Assembly: GCA_037783545.1 (NCBI GenBank)
Contig: JBBELK010000064.1
Location: 62,001-126,000 of the forward strand
Direction: 5' to 3'
Source of the DNA: Henricia sp. BOLD:AAB3569
Taxonomy: Eukaryota; Echinodermata; Asteroidea; Spinulosida; Echinasteridae
Length of the DNA stretch: 64,000 nt
The translations under genes were made by a program, and so were the position numbers. Under the pieces are notes generated by a model. It saw only the letters and a program-made list of their open reading frames with translations, had not been told where the DNA came from and searched no databases. Positions 6,566 to 63,674 of the stretch are shown here, one piece after another (position 1 is the first letter of the stretch; each line of letters begins with the position of its first letter).

Positions 6566-7606
6566 CTACGTGTGGTTATTTCTAACTGTGAGATCGAAGG
6601 CAGCAGCCACCCTTGTGTGGCGATGGCAACAGCGAAGAAAAACATAACTCCGAAGTTCCTGCTGAAACTTCTTGTATTTTAAGGCATAGACGAAAGGGTT
6701 TACCGCAGAGTTCAGAACCGCTATCATCGTTTCTATCATCCCGAGCGTGTGTTTGGTGTCCCTGTCTATTTTGTTGTTGCTTACTATGATGATCATAAGT
6801 ACGTGGACAGAAAGCCACGTGAGAATATAGAGTACCGCGACGATCAAAAGAACTTTGATAACTCGCCTGCAGGCCAGCAAGAGCTCATTGGCCGGAGCGT
6901 GGTTGTTCTCACGCTGCTGTTTCTTTGCATTGTCTCGAAGGTTGATCAAAATTTTCACATAGCTCCAAAATATGACAAAGAGGGGAAATAACCATACGGA
7001 GTTAATTATGAGAAGCCATGTCGCACTTTTGGTGGACGCGCCGTCGGGGTAACATTGGTCTTGGCTCTGGTCGTAATACGGATTCACTGCAAACGGAAGG
7101 TGTGCAATAAACCCCAGGCCCCAAATGGCAGTAGTGATTATGACTAGTCGTCTTCTGGTGAAGAAAACCGAATACCGCAGTGGATGTACAATAGCAAGGT
7201 ACCTTTCGAAGGTCACAGCGACTATACTGTACGTAGACACGTTGCACAGAAACCACATCACTTCATTATCATATAACAGCCTGCAAATTAATTCTTTGTA
7301 TACCTTACTTTTCTCGTTTGTTTGAAATGTAGAAAAATACCTTTCCTGAAAAATGACATTAGCCAAACAGATCAGACTATCAACCACTGCCATATGGGCA
7401 ATAAGGAAGTTTGTTGCATTGTGCATGGATTTCGCTCTCGCTATAATGACACACACCATAATATTTCCAAGTATACCAATTGCGCTCAGAGTCATTCGCG
7501 CGATGAACAAACCATTTTCAACACCGTTGTAAGAGGTTGGCGAACTTGTCGCGGAATAGTTCCTTCGAAAGCTGTCGTGTAAATCCATGTTGATCATAGT
7601 TACCAC
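6566..7606 (-). CDS. Class A (rhodopsin-like) G-protein-coupled receptor, intronless
   Basis: The 346-residue product is a full-length seven-helix receptor of the plasma membrane that should signal through heterotrimeric G proteins. Seen in the sequence: an N-terminal sequon (Asn16-Tyr-Ser), the TM1 GN pair (Asn48), Asp76 in TM2, Cys108 at the TM3 top with a partner Cys185 in loop 2, the ERY motif (134-136, a DRY variant) followed by LAIVHPLRY, and NPFVY (303-307) in TM7 followed by a basic helix 8. The usual TM6 CWxP reads TWLS (263-266), so the conserved proline is missing. Overall it resembles peptide-receptor-like orphan GPCRs of invertebrates, but I cannot name a ligand. The first in-frame Met is chosen; Met4 and Met7 are alternatives. 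The single-exon structure is common for expanded GPCR families. Confidence 0.9.
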   Translation of the reverse strand: MVTMINMDLHDSFRRNYSATSSPTSYNGVENGLFIARMTLSAIGILGNIMVCVIIARAKSMHNATNFLIAHMAVVDSLICLANVIFQERYFSTFQTNEKSKVYKELICRLLYDNEVMWFLCNVSTYSIVAVTFERYLAIVHPLRYSVFFTRRRLVIITTAIWGLGFIAHLPFAVNPYYDQSQDQCYPDGASTKSATWLLIINSVWLFPLFVIFWSYVKILINLRDNAKKQQRENNHAPANELLLACRRVIKVLLIVAVLYILTWLSVHVLMIIIVSNNKIDRDTKHTLGMIETMIAVLNSAVNPFVYALKYKKFQQELRSYVFLRCCHRHTRVAAAFDLTVRNNHT

Positions 7607-7974
7607 CCAGTAGCTTATGATGTAGGCCTACCTCTGTACTTTTGTTATGAAAATTTGCTCGATACACAGCTGCAAAAAGAATGGAAACCAAGATCAGAAA
7701 AAGACACGCTCGTGCTTCAGAACCAGAATTTGTAATCTATATATACAGTGCACTCGTGTTATAGAAAGGCAGTGGTAGGCCTATAGCCACGGGGATGGGG
7801 CACCGACGCTCCTACTCATCTCCCAAAACAGCTTTCCTAATGTTGTCAGATATAAAGTAACAGTATCGACTCATGGTTCTTCTCCTTTGCTTTTCACTGG
7901 TCGGTGCCCCTTGTTCCCCCCAAAACTCCATCAATATACATGTACAAAAGCAAACTCCTTTCATAGCCTATATA
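7607..7974. other. 5' flank of the GPCR gene
   Basis: No coding sequence is seen. It should hold the receptor promoter, but no distinct core motif can be assigned. Confidence 0.35.
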
Positions 7975-21357: not shown

Positions 21358-21384
21358 ATGGATCAGACAAGAAAAAGGCAAAAG
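21358..21384 (+). CDS. DyP-GRE exon 1 (start exon, 9 codons)
   Basis: The ATG is in good context (CACGATGG) and encodes MDQTRKRQK, then a GTATGT donor in phase 0. It joins exactly in frame to exon 2. The in-frame GTG at 21954 lies in the intron before the acceptor and is not a plausible start. Confidence 0.75.
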
Positions 21385-24300
21385 GTATGTACGGACAGAT
21401 TATTGGTGATGAATGTCGATTTCTCTGACGTACAATTTTTGCATTGCATCTCGGCTGCAACCACAGACATCATGTTGTATCTTGCACAATGGCAAGGGTG
21501 GTGCGGTCGGATTAGGCAGTGGTGGTTCTTTCCCCGCTTTTCACCTATGGCATACCAGGCTCGATTCCATGGCGTGTGTGTGGGTTGGGTTTGCAGTCCA
21601 TAGTTGACCGCGTGGGTTTTCCCCGGGGTTTTTTTCCTCCCACTTAATCGTCATGAGTTGATAAGAAAGAAAAGTTAAAGCTAATACCGTATAGTACTAT
21701 CGTTGATGGCATAACGAGCGTTTATAGTTGCCGAAGAAGACATAAATAATCAGTATAACAGCAGCAGCATTTACATGTACATGATTTTGGGAAGATCACC
21801 TCACCAGCTAAGGTGATTCGTTATACCTACAAAACGGTGGCTAGTAACGGACTAGGGTGTACCAATTCATTAGGCTGCTGTCATTAACAATAAGACCTGA
21901 ACGCTGCTGTCCCACTTACCGGACAGACCCTGTTTTTAATAGCCGTCGAATTTGTGAATCGTAATGACTTTTTTCAGACTTACCATCCGAAGAGGAAGTC
22001 CGTGCCTGATGACGAGAAGGTTTCAACCTACCTGCAAGCTCAACCTGGTATTTTCTACACCAGGCCACAACACGGTTGTATGGTCGTGGTGGAGCTGAAT
22101 GACAAGAAGAAGACTGGTAAAACAGCCGTATTTAATGCGGTACAAGCCGTTCACGAAAAATCCGAGTCGCTACAGGGACGAAACGGGTACGTCGTCTCAT
22201 TTGACCCAGCCTTGTGGAAGGCGTGGAACCCCAATGACGTCATCGAAGACCGACCACAGGGCGACTACATGTTGGAAACATCTAAACGGTTCGTCAACAC
22301 AGGTGGAGATGTGCTCTTTTTCTTGAAGTCCGACACGGAGGATGTCGTGCCACAGCTTTTGCTCCAGGTGGAAAACAACCTTGATCTGGCTTCGCTTTAT
22401 ATCACTCGAACCCGGATTTACAACGATCGTGCCATCCACGGAAGGTTCCGAGACGGCGTTGCCAATCCGGTCGACAAGGAAACCGTAGAGCGCTTCATCT
22501 TGACACCGCAGACCAAAGTTCCAGGATCAGGCGGTGGTAGCTACATGTACACACAGAAGTTTCGGATGAACTTTAGCATGTTTAACGAAATGACCGTCCG
22601 CGAACAGGAGAATGTCATTGGCAGAAAGGTTACAGATGAGATCATCATCGATAACGACCCAAGAAGTCACATCCGCCGAGCCCGTCTGAATGACGGTGGT
22701 ATTCATTTGAAGATTCTTCGTGGGAGTATGCCCTACGGTGATGACTATACCCAGGGAGGCCTGAGCGGCCAAGAGGGAATCTACTTCAATGCTTTCGCTG
22801 ATCACTTTTCGCTTTTCATCGATCTCATGCAAAGTCTTGCCGGAGACGACCCTGACTTCACAGAAGATAAACTTATTGCTATGACTAAAGGCATCGAGGG
22901 AAGCTTCTGGTATACACCAAGTTTGCACCAGCTCGGTTTTACTGACGAACCGGACGCAGGCACGGTCCCGACTCTTGACTTCCTGCCATTGTGGGACGTG
23001 AAAAGCACCAACGACTACATGTTTTACAACAGCCGCGAATATCTTCGCCGCATGAGTTTTGGCGAGTATGCTCCCGGGGATCCACCAACACCTCGAGTCA
23101 TCAAGCTCCTGTCCGTGGTCTTCTCCGAGTGGAATGACCAATGGTATCACAGACCAGAAACTGCCCGCATTCCCCATCTGCGAAACTACGTGACGGCAGC
23201 CGAGGAGCCACTTCTGCAGAAGTCTGCGGCCATTCGCAAAGGTCTGGCAATCAAGAAAACACTGGGCACTCTAATTCCAAAAACGGACTATGGCAAAGAT
23301 AACGATCTCTTCCGTATATATCCAAATGAGCTGATCGTAGGCGTCATGCCAAGATTCTCTCTTGGCGTCGGCAAGCACGTCATGCCCTATGCAAGAGAAG
23401 ATGAGGAATTCCCTTGGTTTATGAAGGGACTGAGTGAAGGTGGTGCCATGGGCCACATTGTTCCCGACCACGGTATAGTGTTGAAAGTCGGTCTCGACAA
23501 TTTACGGAAACAATACCTCAAACAACCCAAGGCTGAACACAGAGATTTCTACCAGTCGGTAACCATGGCACTGGAGGGTGTTCAAGAGTACATCCAGAGC
23601 TTTGCGGACCTGGCCCAGCAGATGTCAGAAAAGAATGAACATACAGTCGAAGAAAGGGCAAACCTGAAAGCCATCAACACTAGACTGTTGAAAATAAAGC
23701 ACAACGCCCCCAGCAACATGCTAGAAGCCGTTCAACTTCTGTTCATGGTGCATTGCAGTATGCATTTAATTGGCAACCCGGTGGCTATAGGCCGACTCGA
23801 CGTTCTTCTGAGTCCGTTCTACGACGAGACGGTAACGCCAGACGCTAAGGCGCAAGAGATCTTGGACTGCCTGTGGATTAAGTTAAGCGAACGTGTCGTC
23901 ATCAACCGCCACTTCACACCAGACTTTCACGATCGAGGTTCCACATCGGTGATGTACGCGGCGTCGGGCAACTTTGGTCAAGGCAGCGCCGTCAACCAGT
24001 GGGTCCAACAGATCACTGTGGGCGGATACCAAGCAAACAACAATCGTACACCGACATCGGCCTGTAACAACATCACTTTGCTTTGTCTCAAGTCGTCTCG
24101 CAGGATCCCCACTAATGCCCCGTGTTTGAGTCTCAGGCTGCACAAGAACATGCCAGACGACATACTGCAAGAATCCGCAAAGGCGCTTCTGAGCGGGGGC
24201 GCACATCCCATACTTATGCATGACGACAGGCTTGTACCGAGTCTGATTAGTAGTGGCTCCCCTGACGCACCTGTCAGCCTAGCTGCAGCACGAAACTACG

Positions 24301-26973
24301 CCTGTGATGGATGCTACGAGCCAATGATTGCGGGCGAGACCGAGTTTGCATTCGGCACAATAGTACTGCTGAATATTCTGGAGATGACTCTCAACGAGGG
24401 AACGCTTTGCGCCGATTCCGGAGCGGTGTATCTTCGGGGTCTGAAAGTCTCTTATCCGTCACCACACTGCAGCCAAATCAAGACGTTTGACGAGCTGAAA
24501 GAAATCTTCTTAAAACACCTGCGAATGCAAACAGCCCAGTTTTACATCATAATACTCTCCAACTACGGAAACCTTTGGGATATCTGCCCTTCACCACTTC
24601 TGTCTTCCCTCATTCACGGATGCAAGGAAAGCGGTCGTGATCTTTCCAACGGAGGGTCCAACTTCCACACTCTGGCTATGATGAACGTCAGTGCGTCCAA
24701 CACCATCGATTCACTGTATGCCATTAATAAGCTCGTGTTCGACCCGAGCGAAGCCCTCACGACCCTGCCCGAACTGCTAAAAGCGCTAAAACAGGACTGG
24801 GGATTTGAGATGAGAGAACCGTTTATCGACGAGCGTGCTGGAGACATACGAGAAGATGCGTCGGCTGCTACCTACAAGACACTGAGAAAGAAGGCGTTGA
24901 GTCTGCCCAAGTTTGGACGAGGAAACCCCGAGGTTGACGAGATAGGAAAATGGCTGATGGAAAATGTGGTGTCTATTGCCAAGGAAACTATCCACAACCC
25001 TCCGTCTGTACTCGATGACATCATCGCTAGAATCAAAGAAAAGTATTCGTTACCAGGTAATGAAACTTTGCTTTTTTTTTATTATAATGGAAATGATTTG
25101 AAACCGTTGTACTGTAATAAATTATTTTAGTTTGCAACGTTGAATACCTCCTCGTGTTGTTTAAGAAAGAATCGATGTTAACTGGCTCAGCACGGTCAAG
25201 ATTATTCTAAGCTCCTTCTATTCCCCTCGATTCTAGGTCGCCCGTTTGGTTTCCTAATTGAACCCGGCATCGGCACGTTCGAGGGCTACGTCCCACAAGC
25301 CTTGGGTACTGGCGCCTCCGCGGACGGGCGCCGCAGTCGTCAGCCGTTCGCCTCCGATTTTAGTCCGTCACCCGCACCACAGGACAAAGCTGCAAAGCCG
25401 GCGTTCGTCAACATCTATCAGTGAGTGCATTAACATATTAGTACATGCATGTACACTTTATACTGTCATTTGTTTGGGTTAATTTTACGAGAAACTTGTC
25501 ACTAACATGCAACACTAAAGTTCGATGTTGCAGACGTACACCGACAGTTTTTAAGACTTTGCCTCTCCTTCGTCATCTCAAGTTGATAATAAAGTATAAT
25601 TCAAGCTAATGCTGTATAGTTTATGGAACAAAGGGCCGTAGTTGCCAAATATTCCATCAAATTAACACCACCACCAACAACATATATTTTTATTTCTCCT
25701 GAAATCAAAGGAGCATCAAGCCATGTTTGAGATGACTGTTCATTATAAATAAAGTAGCCTACGCTGTAAAATAAAATTCACTGTCAAACAGGTTGCCAAC
25801 AAAAAAATCGTAAAATTACGGTATCCCGTAATTGTTTTAAAACGATTTTGTCCCTTAAAATGCTACGTTATTCCCGTATTTTGATAGTGCTATACCTTAC
25901 TTTCCCTATACTAAAATTAAATTTACTATTAGTCGCTCATATGCATCTGTCGCCAGCTTAAGTTAACTTGTAGCCAACAACTGTCAATTTTGCATCTTTT
26001 TCAAGCAAAAAACTCAATTAAAAAAGCAAAACAACTGAAAAGTGAAAATATTACCATCTTTACAAAGGAAATATTTTCAGTTACGCGCTATCCCACAATG
26101 CATTGTGAAAATATTTTTATGGGCACTTCCCGTAAAAATGCATTTACGGGAATTTTTTATTTGCAAATCTAGATTGTTACAATTTTTATAATTTATTCCT
26201 GACCGTAGGGCCATGACCAGTTATGACAACCCTGCCGTCAATGTTGGTCTATCCAACGGGTCACCGGTTGACATGAACGTCAAAGAAGACTTCCCAGAGA
26301 ACCAGCTGTACAAATTCATACGCCACTACGCAAATGGCACAAAACCCATCGGCTCCAATCTGATTACAGGTACATTAGGCTCAATTCAATCAGTTCTGGT
26401 ATGTACATGGCATGAAATAAAATAAACTTCATAACTTGTACAATTGGGTTTCTACCAAAGATAATATAGAGATAGACCACTCATGCGAAATATATTTAAT
26501 AACAGTAGTAGGCCTATACTTATTCTCGCGTATGGCGTGCACAGCCTACAGTTTCAGGCCAAGGTTGGACATCCAAGCCAGGACATCCAAGCCAAGGCAG
26601 CATCGGTCACTTTGTGAAATGTCCCTCATTCCACCGGGAAAAACCTTAGTGAGCATTCGTTCGCGATGTGTGGAATGATCTGGTATAGGGAACCACAGTC
26701 ACAAGCAGGGCTTTCCATCATCCCTCACTTGTGCAAACGATGGGCTGTTTTTGCATGGAGGGTGCGGATTCTATTTAGGTCTAATAACCTTTTGTATTTG
26801 TTCTTACTGCAGTCACATGCGCCGATTTGGAGACATACGAACAAGCTGTTGAGGAGCCGGAGCGTTATGACCTGGTGCGTGTACGTACCGGCGGCTGGAC
26901 GGAGCACTACGTGTCCATGTTCCCCGAACATCAGAAACAGCATCAGCGTCGTGTTTTCTTCACACCGCTGTAG
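21358..26973 (+). CDS. DyP-type heme peroxidase / glycyl radical enzyme fusion (5 exons, 1203 aa)
   Basis: Exons 21358-21384, 21978-25056, 25237-25420, 26209-26369 and 26813-26973 join in frame (intron phases 0, 1, 2, 1; all GT-AG) to 3612 nt with stop. Residues ~30-330 are a DyP peroxidase: RDGVANP with distal Asp168, SHIRRA with proximal heme His240, ILRGSMPYG with distal Arg257. Residues ~380-1203 are a glycyl radical enzyme: GRLD, GCYEP with thiyl Cys788 and Glu790, TGASADGRR, ASDFSP, and a C-terminal VRVRTGGW with candidate radical Gly1178, 25 residues from the end as in the family. GCxE is typical of eliminase/dehydratase GREs; pyruvate formate-lyase has Cys-Cys. The N-terminus is basic with no signal peptide, so cytosolic location is inferred. 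Substrate unknown; a radical-SAM activase is needed elsewhere. No clear AATAAA lies soon after the stop. Confidence 0.9.
21500..21772 (+). mobile_element. SINE family 1 in DyP-GRE intron 1
   Basis: The head carries B box AGGCTCGATTCC (21557-21568), the body TGGGTTTGCAGTCC and GTGGGTTTTCCCC, and the tail GAGTTGATAAG. It is in the same orientation as the host gene and occupies about half of the 593-bp intron. Confidence 0.8.
21978..25056 (+). CDS. DyP-GRE exon 2 (3079 bp): whole DyP domain and most of the GRE barrel
   Basis: It follows a TTTTTTCAG acceptor and ends before a GTAATG donor (phase 1). It encodes residues 10-1035 with no interruption, including the catalytic Asp168, His240, Arg257, Cys788 and Glu790. 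Such a long exon is unusual beside the four short ones. Confidence 0.92.
25237..25420 (+). CDS. DyP-GRE exon 3
   Basis: Acceptor TTCTAG, donor GTGAGT. It encodes the GRE C-terminal segment GRPFGFLIEPGIGTFEGYV, then GTGASADGRRSRQPFASDFS, a strongly conserved part of the family. Confidence 0.92.
25560..25685 (+). mobile_element. SINE family 1, 5'-truncated, in DyP-GRE intron 3
   Basis: Only the 3' part is kept (TTCGTCATCTCAAGTTGATA, AATAAAGTA, GTTGCCAAATA-type tail, then CCACCACCAAC). Confidence 0.7.
26209..26369 (+). CDS. DyP-GRE exon 4
   Basis: Acceptor CGTAG, donor GTACAT. Phase 2 in and phase 1 out fit the neighbours. It encodes AMTSYDNPAVNVGLSNGSPV and continues to GSNLIT, matching the GRE region before the glycyl radical loop. 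Confidence 0.88.
26813..26973 (+). CDS. DyP-GRE exon 5: glycyl radical loop and stop
   Basis: Acceptor TACTGCAG. It encodes VTCADLETYEQAV, then ERYDLVRVRTGGWTEHYV, and ends FFTPL-stop. The candidate glycyl radical Gly1178 is encoded at 26893-26895. Compared with the usual R[IVT][CSA]G[YWF] it reads RTGGW. Confidence 0.88.
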
Positions 26974-28119: not shown

Positions 28120-28492
28120 AGACCCTATGATCTGTTTTTGAGCGATTCTGGAAACATTATAAATCGAAAGAAAGTATTTTTTTCGTTCAGATTGAACCCG
28201 CTTTTTGGTAAATTTATATATTGAAATCGATAGCTTATTCAATTCTAAGATATACTTCCCATTTGCACTTTTGTCGCAAATGTGGCTTTTATGTCTACAA
28301 AAATCACATTTTCTCCTACAAAAATGCAGTCAGTTAGTGCACAAGATAACCATTCATTTATCTCAGAAATGCAACATTTCCGACAGAAGTGCAAGTGGGA
28401 AGTATATCTTAGAATTTAATAAGCTATCGATTCCAATAATATTTACCAAAATCCGCGTTTAATGTGAACAAAAAAATACCAAAGATCAGAGG
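28120..28492. mobile_element. Foldback element with long inner arms
   Basis: The arms 28206-28275 and 28385-28449 are near-perfect complements (GAATCGATAGCTTATT... and its inverse). The outer part, GATCTGTTTTTGAGCGATTC, is shared with the MITE at 41866-42392. Confidence 0.65.
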
Positions 28493-61609: not shown

Positions 61610-63113
61610 CTCTGCCTTTCTATTTCGCGGGAAATTTTAAAACCAAACACTTCGTCATTGGTTTTCATCTATAATGGCAGATATTTGTGGAATTAGTGCA
61701 TGCACTTAAATCGCACTAATTTGTTTTCAGTGCTAAATATCCATATATCCAAGCATGAAGCAAATAAAACGAGTACAAGATAACTCTCAGACATTCAAAA
61801 CGCACTTTAAGTTACTTTAAGTTACGCAATTTACTGTGCACCGATGCTCTCTCAATTTAAAACAGTCAAAATTCACTCTCTCTTATTGAAACTATAGGGT
61901 CAAGACGAAGTGAAGTACAATTTCCTCACTCCGATAAATTGAGATGTCACTCGTGTTGCCACTACTGGAAGGGGTCATTTTACAAACTTTTTCAATCAAA
62001 ACTTAGAGAGATGTTCAGTCTAAAACGTCCAGTCCCTATATAGTTTCACTCTTACCGATTTAGCGAGTGCACGGTTTTCAAGATGTAATGGGTGACTAAG
62101 TGGCATATGTAGCCTAAGTCACTTTTTCGGTTTTTCCGATGACGAGAAGAATTATACGTAGAAATGGCAGCTCGTGGTCGCTCACTCAGGCAGCATGCGA
62201 AAATATCAAATAATATCGGCAGCGGTTGACCAATGCGTTTGAGGGGAATGACGTGGATTATCTCGAGCTTGCAGTTGATCTGGGTATCAAAAGGTCCACG
62301 GCGAGATCAAAAGTAAAGATGCACACGGACTATCGGTTGTCTTTTTCAAATTGTCAACTCAGTTCTCTCTAAATGTAAAAGAGTGAATAACCACTCTTTT
62401 AAGAGCCATAGCTCGCTTTTGAGTGACTTCGCTCTTTTATATTGCTTTTTCACCTTGGAAGTGTGTTAAAACCCACTCTGAAGGGGTGAAATCTTCACTA
62501 AAAAGAGTGAAATTATCACTCGAAAAGGAGCTGTGATATCGCCTGTTTAATTAGACCGACACGATGTGACGTCTTTGAAGCACCGTACATATAAAGGAAA
62601 GACTTCTTTCCTTCCTTCACAAACATTTTCGCAAATATACTTGGACTAAAGATAGAACTTCATTGTGTTAAGGTGTTGTTGAGTTTTGTTTTTGTCTTTT
62701 GTCTAAGCAATGATGGTCCAAGAGTATTTGCAAAAAGGTCTCGGCTGGGGGTGACTACAACAGGAGGCGCTTAGAATTAGAAAGGGGGCGATTATTATGG
62801 AGGCGACTTGACTTGAAAACGCGTCGGGAACCAGTCTCGCGTGGTACCAGTGGCGGTACATTGCAATACCGCCCTCCTTTGTCCTCATCGTAGAGGACCC
62901 GTCCATGCCCATGCCATGGTAACGTAAATAATAACATTCATGACATTTAGTTACGATACGTTTTGTGCTTGCGCTTTGCCATTGATTTCCTTCAAAGTTT
63001 AGTCAGGTTGATTGTCTTCATATCTTCTCCAAATCTACTTGAGATTTTGAGGCATAATTCTCAAGAATTTTTGGTACGTCTGAGCTTGCTGAGTCGCAAA
63101 ATTAAAGACAATC
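61610..63113. other. Intergenic sequence upstream of the SPMIP1-like gene
   Basis: At 61860-62530 the word GAGTGA/TCACTC recurs about fifteen times in both orientations, suggesting an eroded MITE. No gene is seen. Confidence 0.45.
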
Positions 63114-63674
63114 ATGAGGGAACTTTTCGACGTGCAACGCCAGAACTTCTGGACGGAATCGATTCACAAGGAAGCGTACACGAGGCTGGCATGGCACGAA
63201 AAATACAGCAAGGAGTTCGCCAGAGAATCCCGACAAGGAAAAGGAGTAGTCCGCAAACAACGTCCAGATATGGTCCCCAAGGTCCACGCGGTGCCGAGCT
63301 TGCAATCCAGGAAGCCAGCTGCTGAACAGTCAAAAAGTCTGAGGGATCTTGCGGCCAAAAAGGAAGCGCGCAAGAAGGAATTGGCTGCCACCGCTAGCGA
63401 AGACCCCGACGCGCTCCTGGTGGAAATGAGGCCTGTAACAGCGACGGTGAAAGATCAACTGTACAAGGGCTTCAGTAAGGAGGGAACCGGTCGCTACGCC
63501 TACCTACAGATCAGGAAAATGAAAAAACCTGAAATGAAGTACGACTTTCCCATCACAAGTTCCTGGGAGTACGGGTGGCGTTTGGATGATGTCGTGAAGG
63601 AGTTCAGAGCACCGGCTTTTGGTCGATCTCGAATTGTCAAGGACTCTTTCTACCGCACGAATGGCATCTTTTAG
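63114..63674 (+). CDS. SPMIP1: SPMIP1 (ATP6V1FNB)-like protein, single exon, 186 aa
   Basis: The small basic protein begins MRELFDVQRQNFWTESIHKE followed by AYTRLAWHEKY, and ends with SSWEYGWRLDDV and FYRTNGIF. From memory, this N-terminal helix pattern and the SSWEYGW block are the conserved parts of SPMIP1 (formerly ATP6V1FNB), a microtubule inner protein of sperm axonemal doublets. No signal peptide or membrane segment. Lys/Arg-rich helical middle (about 75-105). The ATG at 63114 is the first in frame and fits the family start. AATAAA at 63968-63973 may be its poly(A) signal. It is divergent from FBXL5 and about 3.1 kb away. The ortholog name is a pattern match and could be a related ciliary protein. 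Confidence 0.7.
   Translation: MRELFDVQRQNFWTESIHKEAYTRLAWHEKYSKEFARESRQGKGVVRKQRPDMVPKVHAVPSLQSRKPAAEQSKSLRDLAAKKEARKKELAATASEDPDALLVEMRPVTATVKDQLYKGFSKEGTGRYAYLQIRKMKKPEMKYDFPITSSWEYGWRLDDVVKEFRAPAFGRSRIVKDSFYRTNGIF

Follow-up and report, generated by a model that had tools for sequence, protein, structure and literature searches.

Why does the genome of a sea star contain a gene that joins a DyP-type heme peroxidase to a glycyl radical enzyme (GRE), and how could such an enzyme be switched on in an animal? GREs are classic enzymes of anaerobic life, sensitive to oxygen themselves and dependent on an activase that is oxygen-sensitive too. The gene in question lies at positions 21358-26973 (+) of the 64,000-nucleotide stretch of Henricia sp. 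DNA analysed here (hereafter the window), which corresponds to positions 62001-126000 of contig C64 in a 740,731,340-base assembly. We found that this DyP-GRE fusion is almost certainly a resident and intact animal gene, probably the product of an old transfer into the animal lineage as judged from its sequence and surroundings, and that its family, otherwise bacterial in the material searched, is linked to a DyP in all testable loci examined and mostly lacks a radical-SAM activase. Our best reading, to which we assign a probability of roughly 40%, is that of a GRE whose DyP partner would make the protein radical with peroxide.

The gene model comprises five exons with GT-AG introns throughout; its spliced length of 3612 nt contains no internal stop and encodes a predicted protein of 1203 amino acids, as a first-pass annotation of the window had claimed in proposing one spliced frame. 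Its bulk is a single open frame of 1078 codons (21894-25130) that spans both domains. Exon 1 (21358..21384) supplies the proposed start and nine residues (MDQTRKRQK) and stays open up to the donor GTATGT, yet the start codon is uncertain because this exon is without homology support. Intron 1 (21385..21977) is followed by exon 2 (21978..25056), which carries the DyP domain (residues ~22-330), a linker and the GRE barrel with Cys788-Tyr-Glu790. The C-terminal part of the GRE is divided between exon 3 (25237..25420, reading GTFEGYVPQALGTGASADGRR...) and, beyond intron 3 (25421..26208), exon 4 (26209..26369), while exon 5 (26813..26973) contributes the glycyl loop RVRTGGWTE and the stop codon, all on the + strand. 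These three exons show 66-68%, 53-57% and 67-71% identity, respectively, to the same three bacterial relatives (L070, L055 and L049). The junctions also read like the uninterrupted bacterial sequences, with NIYQ/AMTSY at junction 3/4 against NIYQALKSW, and GSNLIT/VTCADLETY at junction 4/5 against GSNLITLTCADLATY.

Both catalytic sets are in place in the animal protein. The DyP domain matched Pfam PF20628 (Dyp_perox_C) with 92 bits and TIGR01413 (Dyp_perox_fam, NCBIfam) with 132 bits, above the cut-off of 100.5, and retains the proximal His240 and the distal Asp168 and Arg257; the matches of this exon did not include the N-terminal Pfam DyP model PF04261. The GRE region (residues ~400-1203), which resembles pyruvate formate-lyase (PFL) and matched Pfam PF02901 with 324 bits, has the barrel, Cys788-Tyr-Glu790 (GCYE) and the loop RVRTGGW. 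Every residue named in the first-pass annotation (Asp168, His240, Arg257, Cys788 and Glu790) was thus recovered at exactly its number, as was the C-terminal glycyl loop, and its proposed profile check was borne out for the DyP and PFL-like profiles, exon 5 alone staying below the cut-off of Pfam Gly_radical (14.7 against 22.2 bits) and matching the NCBIfam GrcA-type glycyl-radical models only weakly, under their cut-offs. Alignment of the loop to RVSGY suggests that Gly1178 occupies the radical-bearing position. The protein is not a PFL in the strict sense: GCYE stands in place of the adjacent Cys-Cys pair, described as a feature of PFL in the relevant part of PMC12338860, and TIGR01255 was not among the main-exon matches and gave 13.4 bits on exon 5 against a cut-off of 994. 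From the Cys-x-Glu motif and the fold we infer an enzyme built like glycerol/propanediol dehydratase and choline trimethylamine (TMA)-lyase, which would catalyse an elimination-type reaction. AlphaFold2 modelled the exon 2 product with a predicted local distance difference test score of 86.0 and a predicted template-modelling score (pTM) of 0.87.

That this gene is an artefact, be it a contaminant, a mis-assembly or neighbouring genes wrongly spliced together, is extremely improbable. The family is mainly bacterial within the material searched, which would suit such an origin; however, a repeat of ~240 bp in intron 3 (~25909-26155), found by a search of the animal's own genome, has copies of 81-90% identity on at least 18 other contigs, as judged from 40 of 1148 first-look candidates that were scored, and by blastn introns 1 and 3 have repeats in common with the window segments at 11.3-11.5 and 16.5-16.7 kb. 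These host repeats rule out contamination and settle the place of the gene in the animal genome in favour of the first-pass annotation. Mis-assembly and mis-splicing fare no better against a multi-megabase contig (C64 was matched again at 2.67 Mb), frames for a G-protein-coupled receptor (GPCR) and an SPMIP1-like protein in the same window, the 1078-codon open frame across both domains and junctions that match the bacterial relatives. The fusion used as query matched only itself, and a search of the animal genome yielded one PFL-like gene.

The architecture is not unique to this animal. A tblastn search of plasmids recovered an Asticcacaulis single open reading frame (ORF) of 1326 aa, annotated only as a Dyp-type peroxidase, that covers 99% of the main exon at 31% identity. 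A first scan of contigs based solely on the animal protein gave four pattern matches with no relative among them. Relatives were then collected by GRE motifs alone ([SAL][VL]NQW[IVM]QQ and [ND]YA[CA]DGCY), built from an alignment of three sequences of which two were fusions; in genome contigs this yielded 83 relatives, of which 80 were kept. A DyP was present in all 78 testable loci, two of the 80 (L057 and L061) being cut by a contig end: in 66 it is fused to the GRE, as a single ORF in 64 and with a broken frame in two (L069, L072), and in the remaining 12 (L074-L085) it is the next gene. The plasmid and contig relatives rule out uniqueness, and the first-pass claim of an undescribed architecture was too strong, with fusions in many bacteria and one published from Chaetomium.

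The pairing comes in two forms. Among solved structures, the fused DyPs are nearest YfeX/type-B DyPs, and the separate DyP of L074, the only separate one so compared, is nearest EfeB/deferrochelatase, so that two DyP subfamilies appear tied to one GRE clade. The 50 Foldseek matches listed were all GRE-type, the DyP matches coming from a separate comparison. An AlphaFold2 model of the Collimonas fusion reached a pTM of 0.90 over 1181 residues, consistent with the two domains keeping a fixed position relative to each other. By record name, the carriers include Pedobacter, Acinetobacter, Corallococcus, Anabaena, actinomycetes and betaproteobacteria, which are known as aerobes.

In a quick tree of 82 rows, from which L069 was excluded as too short, the animal sequence stands beside eight Pseudomonadota rows (Shimodaira-Hasegawa-like approximate likelihood ratio 99) on a branch of length 1.0; by our reading, seven of these eight are betaproteobacterial. 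Its highest identity to any row is 51% over 769 columns. Since the animal branch is long and the join may be false, the tree fixes neither donor nor date. Several bacterial loci deserve separate mention. L002 and L006 (an Asticcacaulis plasmid and Pseudomonas sp. SDI) form a deep outlier pair with a formylglycine-generating-enzyme (FGE)-like gene directly upstream, and in L003 (Hymenobacter) the GRE lies in two frames with the DyP frame adjoining. L086, a contig classed as 'viral' in IMG/VR, has a fusion that agrees with the one in Burkholderia cepacia L043 at every tree column, and is either a prophage neighbour or mislabelled bacterial DNA.

Conservation was assessed on an alignment of 83 rows, the animal and 82 others, which excluded L004, L005 and ORFs below 660 aa. 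The GRE residues are close to invariant: Cys and Glu are each kept in 82 of 83 rows, the first and second Gly of the loop in 81 and 82, its Trp in 81, and Gly-Gly-Trp together in 81. His502 is almost invariant across the rows. The His matching His164 of glycerol dehydratase is kept in 81 of 83, and the place of Asp447 is not conserved, the numbering of that enzyme being set against the alignment. The only row without the GRE Cys, L068 (Candidatus Albibeggiatoa), is also without the RVRxGGW loop, and represents either a degenerate copy or frame damage. On the DyP side, the His is kept in all 68 rows that have the domain and the Arg in 64. The domain order and the near-invariant GRE set that the first-pass annotation had hoped to see in orthologues were therefore found, in bacteria, whereas the DyP Asp is often Glu. 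The DyP-linked GREs have RVRxGGW or close variants, in contrast to the RVSGY or RVAGY found in all seven canonical GREs of six carrier genomes and in L004, the canonical control; in L005 the regular expression matched no glycyl loop. In several fusions (e.g. L010, L025, L031) the tail at one end of the chain, N- or C-terminal, bears short Cys-Pro-Phe-His motifs that resemble heme-regulatory CP motifs.

The second regularity of the family concerns the activase. The 80 carrier genomes were searched as one set of 50 and one of 30, using PF02901 and the profile TIGR02494 for glycyl-radical enzyme activating proteins, with TIGR02494 matches listed down to E 1e-3 in the first set and E 1e-8 in the second; a GRE was called canonical when it matched the PFL-like profile from its first residues. 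Only six genomes also contain a canonical GRE (G008, G026, G032, G034, G061 with two, and G062), and strong TIGR02494 matches (at least 127 bits) are present in all of these six and in no other, each lying on the contig of the canonical GRE and no more than ~4 kb from it. Four of the six exceed the curated cut-off, with the Andreprevotia genomes G032 and G034 (127-128 bits) below it. No functional-looking TIGR02494 match was found in the other 74, where the best reached 73.6 bits and the rest 51.6 or less. The chance of six of six against none of 74 would be 3e-9 for independent genomes, which these are not, making the figure only a guide. Hence no cognate radical-SAM activase was found for the DyP-linked GRE: 74 of 80 bacterial carriers show none, and in the other six the activase lies near another, canonical GRE.

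Three of the weaker signals were examined individually. The 73.6-bit match comes from the Trinickia genome of L021, in which the DyP-linked GRE is the only PFL-like match; its ORF scores 76.1 bits with TIGR02494 and 118.6 bits with PFLA, and it was rejected as an activase (L098), because this PflA-like remnant lacks a continuous reading frame and its matched ORF contains no Cys cluster. Two further sub-threshold hits were AmmeMemoRadiSam enzymes. Among 14 named control genomes, PF02901 matched in three and TIGR02494 exceeded its cut-off in three, which need not be the same ones. G068 has a second PFL-like frame of 949 aa. At the level of the loci, radical-SAM motif ORFs occurred in three of 83 DyP-GRE loci (L053, L063, L076), none adjacent, while the activase is next door in the canonical control L004. 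This count combines two scans of 85 loci, including L004 and L005, with short flanks where loci are cut by contig ends: the first scan missed the positive control L004, and the widened expression then lost L076.

The animal genome gave no TIGR02494 match at E 0.001, with sensitivity limited for exon-split genes, and a bacterial activase used as query found no match, in a search without a positive control. PF04055 detected only four short radical-SAM stretches on three contigs; those on two of the contigs read by motif as RSAD1/HemN-like and CDK5RAP1/MiaB-like. Absence of the activase is thus weaker evidence in the animal than in the bacteria, because exon-split genes are hard to find.

We propose that the DyP domain may replace the oxygen-sensitive radical-SAM activase of an elimination-type radical enzyme. 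Peroxide would convert the DyP heme to a high-valent state, which, via radical-carrying aromatic residues, could abstract a hydrogen (an electron together with a proton) either from Gly1178 or straight from Cys788. With Glu790 acting as the base, the thiyl on Cys788 would then attack the substrate, and a radical that oxygen has destroyed could be regenerated through re-oxidation by peroxide. A radical made by the DyP would explain why DyP and GRE are constantly paired, why the pairing takes two forms, why the activase is missing and why the glycyl loop is altered. The chemistry is plausible because DyPs are believed to transfer electrons over long range, with Trp/Tyr radicals at the surface (PMC8197335, relevant part), and because there is a precedent in the DyP DtpA, which according to the relevant part of PMC4736821 the radical copper enzyme GlxA requires for its maturation when copper is limiting. 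Expression of the Chaetomium fusion gene, as described in the relevant passages of PMC5041501, rises 3-fold with H2O2 and 18.5-fold with peroxyacetic acid.

Several observations weigh against this proposal. At the position of the DyP Asp, 46 of 68 rows have Glu, 18 have Asp and four have His, and in the fused DyPs of L050, L051, L063 and L073 Asp and Arg are both replaced; since the genomes of L063 and L073 are without an activase as well as without an intact DyP set, the strict model fails there. In five fused relatives the DyP shares 24-28% identity with the animal, compared with 42-48% for the main part of the GRE. Some carriers are not of aerobe type, such as a Desulfobacca metagenome-assembled genome (L051), and genomes of this kind among the 80 can be incomplete. 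The absence of the activase rests on one profile, and another radical-SAM enzyme could serve. In the relevant passages of the two sources, added copper rescues GlxA maturation, DtpA thus not being strictly required (PMC4736821), and for Chaetomium itself a putative PFL activase has been reported (PMC5041501).

A first rival is protection in cis, one of two explanations put forward in the first-pass annotation, in which some radical-SAM enzyme activates the GRE and the DyP only clears peroxide harmful to the glycyl radical or the Fe-S activase. The oxygen sensitivity of GREs speaks for it, as do, in the relevant passages of PMC5041501, the induction of the fungal fusion by peroxide and peroxyacid and the claimed fungal PFL activase. 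Protection alone nevertheless fits poorly, because a protected GRE would still need its activase and no functional one was matched in 74 of 80 carriers; the radical-SAM ORFs of only three of 83 loci, none adjacent, compare badly with the activase beside the canonical GRE of L004, and the changed glycyl loop is a further difficulty. We consider this explanation unlikely.

The missing activase is equally left unexplained by a two-step bifunctional enzyme, in which the DyP oxidises a substrate or the GRE product and the compound passes through a channel from one active site to the other; a two-step reaction was the second first-pass suggestion. The stable association by fusion or operon and the high pTM agree with such an arrangement, and some clades have PLD-like, phosphoesterase, S1/P1 nuclease, 5'-nucleotidase or cytidine deaminase neighbours possibly acting on phosphodiesters or nucleotides; however, neighbours vary between clades and DyP Asp/Arg are lost in four rows, and we hold this to be unlikely, more so than protection. 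A PFL-like fold reused without any glycyl radical, in which Cys788 acts as a normal nucleophile or undergoes direct oxidation and the DyP serves as a heme sensor or a scaffold, would account for the lack of an activase, for the several DyPs with replaced catalytic residues and for an exon 5 under the Pfam Gly_radical cut-off. Against this stand the almost invariant Cys, Glu, His502 and Gly-Gly-Trp loop and the simultaneous loss of Cys and loop in L068, as if both go together, and it appears to us the least probable of these three. Radical formation by the DyP partner is accordingly the reading that we prefer.

Gene neighbourhoods differ by clade, and no common pathway emerged that would indicate the substrate. 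A neighbour cluster found in 14 loci is PLD-like in the three members scanned, and a gene of this PLD-like cluster lies downstream in L050, L051 and L073. A recurrent neighbour of ~270 aa without Pfam match is presumably HAD-like by its motif. Others turned up in one or a few loci (PF04185 phosphoesterase, DUF2608, cytidine deaminase, 5'-nucleotidase, S1/P1 nuclease, FGE-like, MFS), many neighbours having no Pfam match at all. As to an anti-phage defence context, PADLOC gave weak matches on a PLD-like and a protease-nuclease neighbour and none for the other six of eight proteins. Elsewhere in the window, a rhodopsin-type GPCR frame (6566-7627, -) forms one ORF with a 144-bit match and has the prolactin-releasing peptide and galanin receptors as nearest solved structures, and an SPMIP1-like frame (sperm microtubule inner protein 1; 63093-63674, +) scored 135 bits. 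A fold-back (inverted) repeat lies 3' of the fusion gene (28174-28479) and recurs on contig C620 of the animal's assembly, while contig C350 shares the stretch next to this repeat. Rfam gave no match in the window.

The DyP-PFL fusion itself is already in print (PMC5041501), whereas a DyP-linked GRE family that is mostly without a radical-SAM activase looks new. Among the papers listed in searches of an open-licence library, PMC5041501 alone was seen to describe the fusion, and we found neither activase-free carriers nor peroxidase-driven GRE activation stated. We tentatively propose, at somewhat less than even odds, that a heme peroxidase, in cis or next door, would start a glycyl/thiyl radical enzyme with peroxide, that the GRE could thereby work in air without radical-SAM chemistry, and that one animal lineage has adopted this system. 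A GRE clade of cyanobacteria, myxobacteria, Pedobacter, Acinetobacter, actinomycetes and an animal that is bound to a heme peroxidase in all testable loci examined and is mostly activase-free would change the rule of anaerobic, activase-dependent GREs, and would bring to an animal a radical chemistry that is not usually expected there. The relation of the proposed system to canonical GREs would be like that of the oxygen-using class I to the class III ribonucleotide reductase.

Among known systems, the DyP-B/PFL fusion of the fungus Chaetomium, compared here by its description in the relevant passages of PMC5041501, has been in print since 2016, with further fusions in other prokaryotic and eukaryotic genomes. 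Like the animal protein, it has an N-terminal DyP and a C-terminal PFL-like glycyl-radical region and was acquired from bacteria; it differs in its fungal host and in that its authors assume a PFL activase. They call the significance of the fusion elusive, and these passages contain no statement of activase-free carriers. The DyP tree of that paper, in the part relevant here, includes Deuterostomia and Mollusca, and animal DyPs, fused or not, had thus already been noticed. Compared with the GRE eliminases B12-independent glycerol/1,2-propanediol dehydratase and choline TMA-lyase, to which it is 22-24% identical, the animal GRE has the RVRxGGW loop and an attached DyP and does not conserve the place of Asp447, and the DyP-linked GREs have no activase gene alongside. 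Compared with YfeX/type-B DyP peroxidases, the DyP is here fused to a GRE and its Asp is often Glu in the relatives. DtpA and GlxA, as far as the relevant part of PMC4736821 describes them, are separate proteins, DtpA is Tat-exported, and GlxA is a copper enzyme, not a GRE, whose maturation added copper can rescue, yet in that system, too, the maturation of an enzyme with a protein radical involves a DyP.

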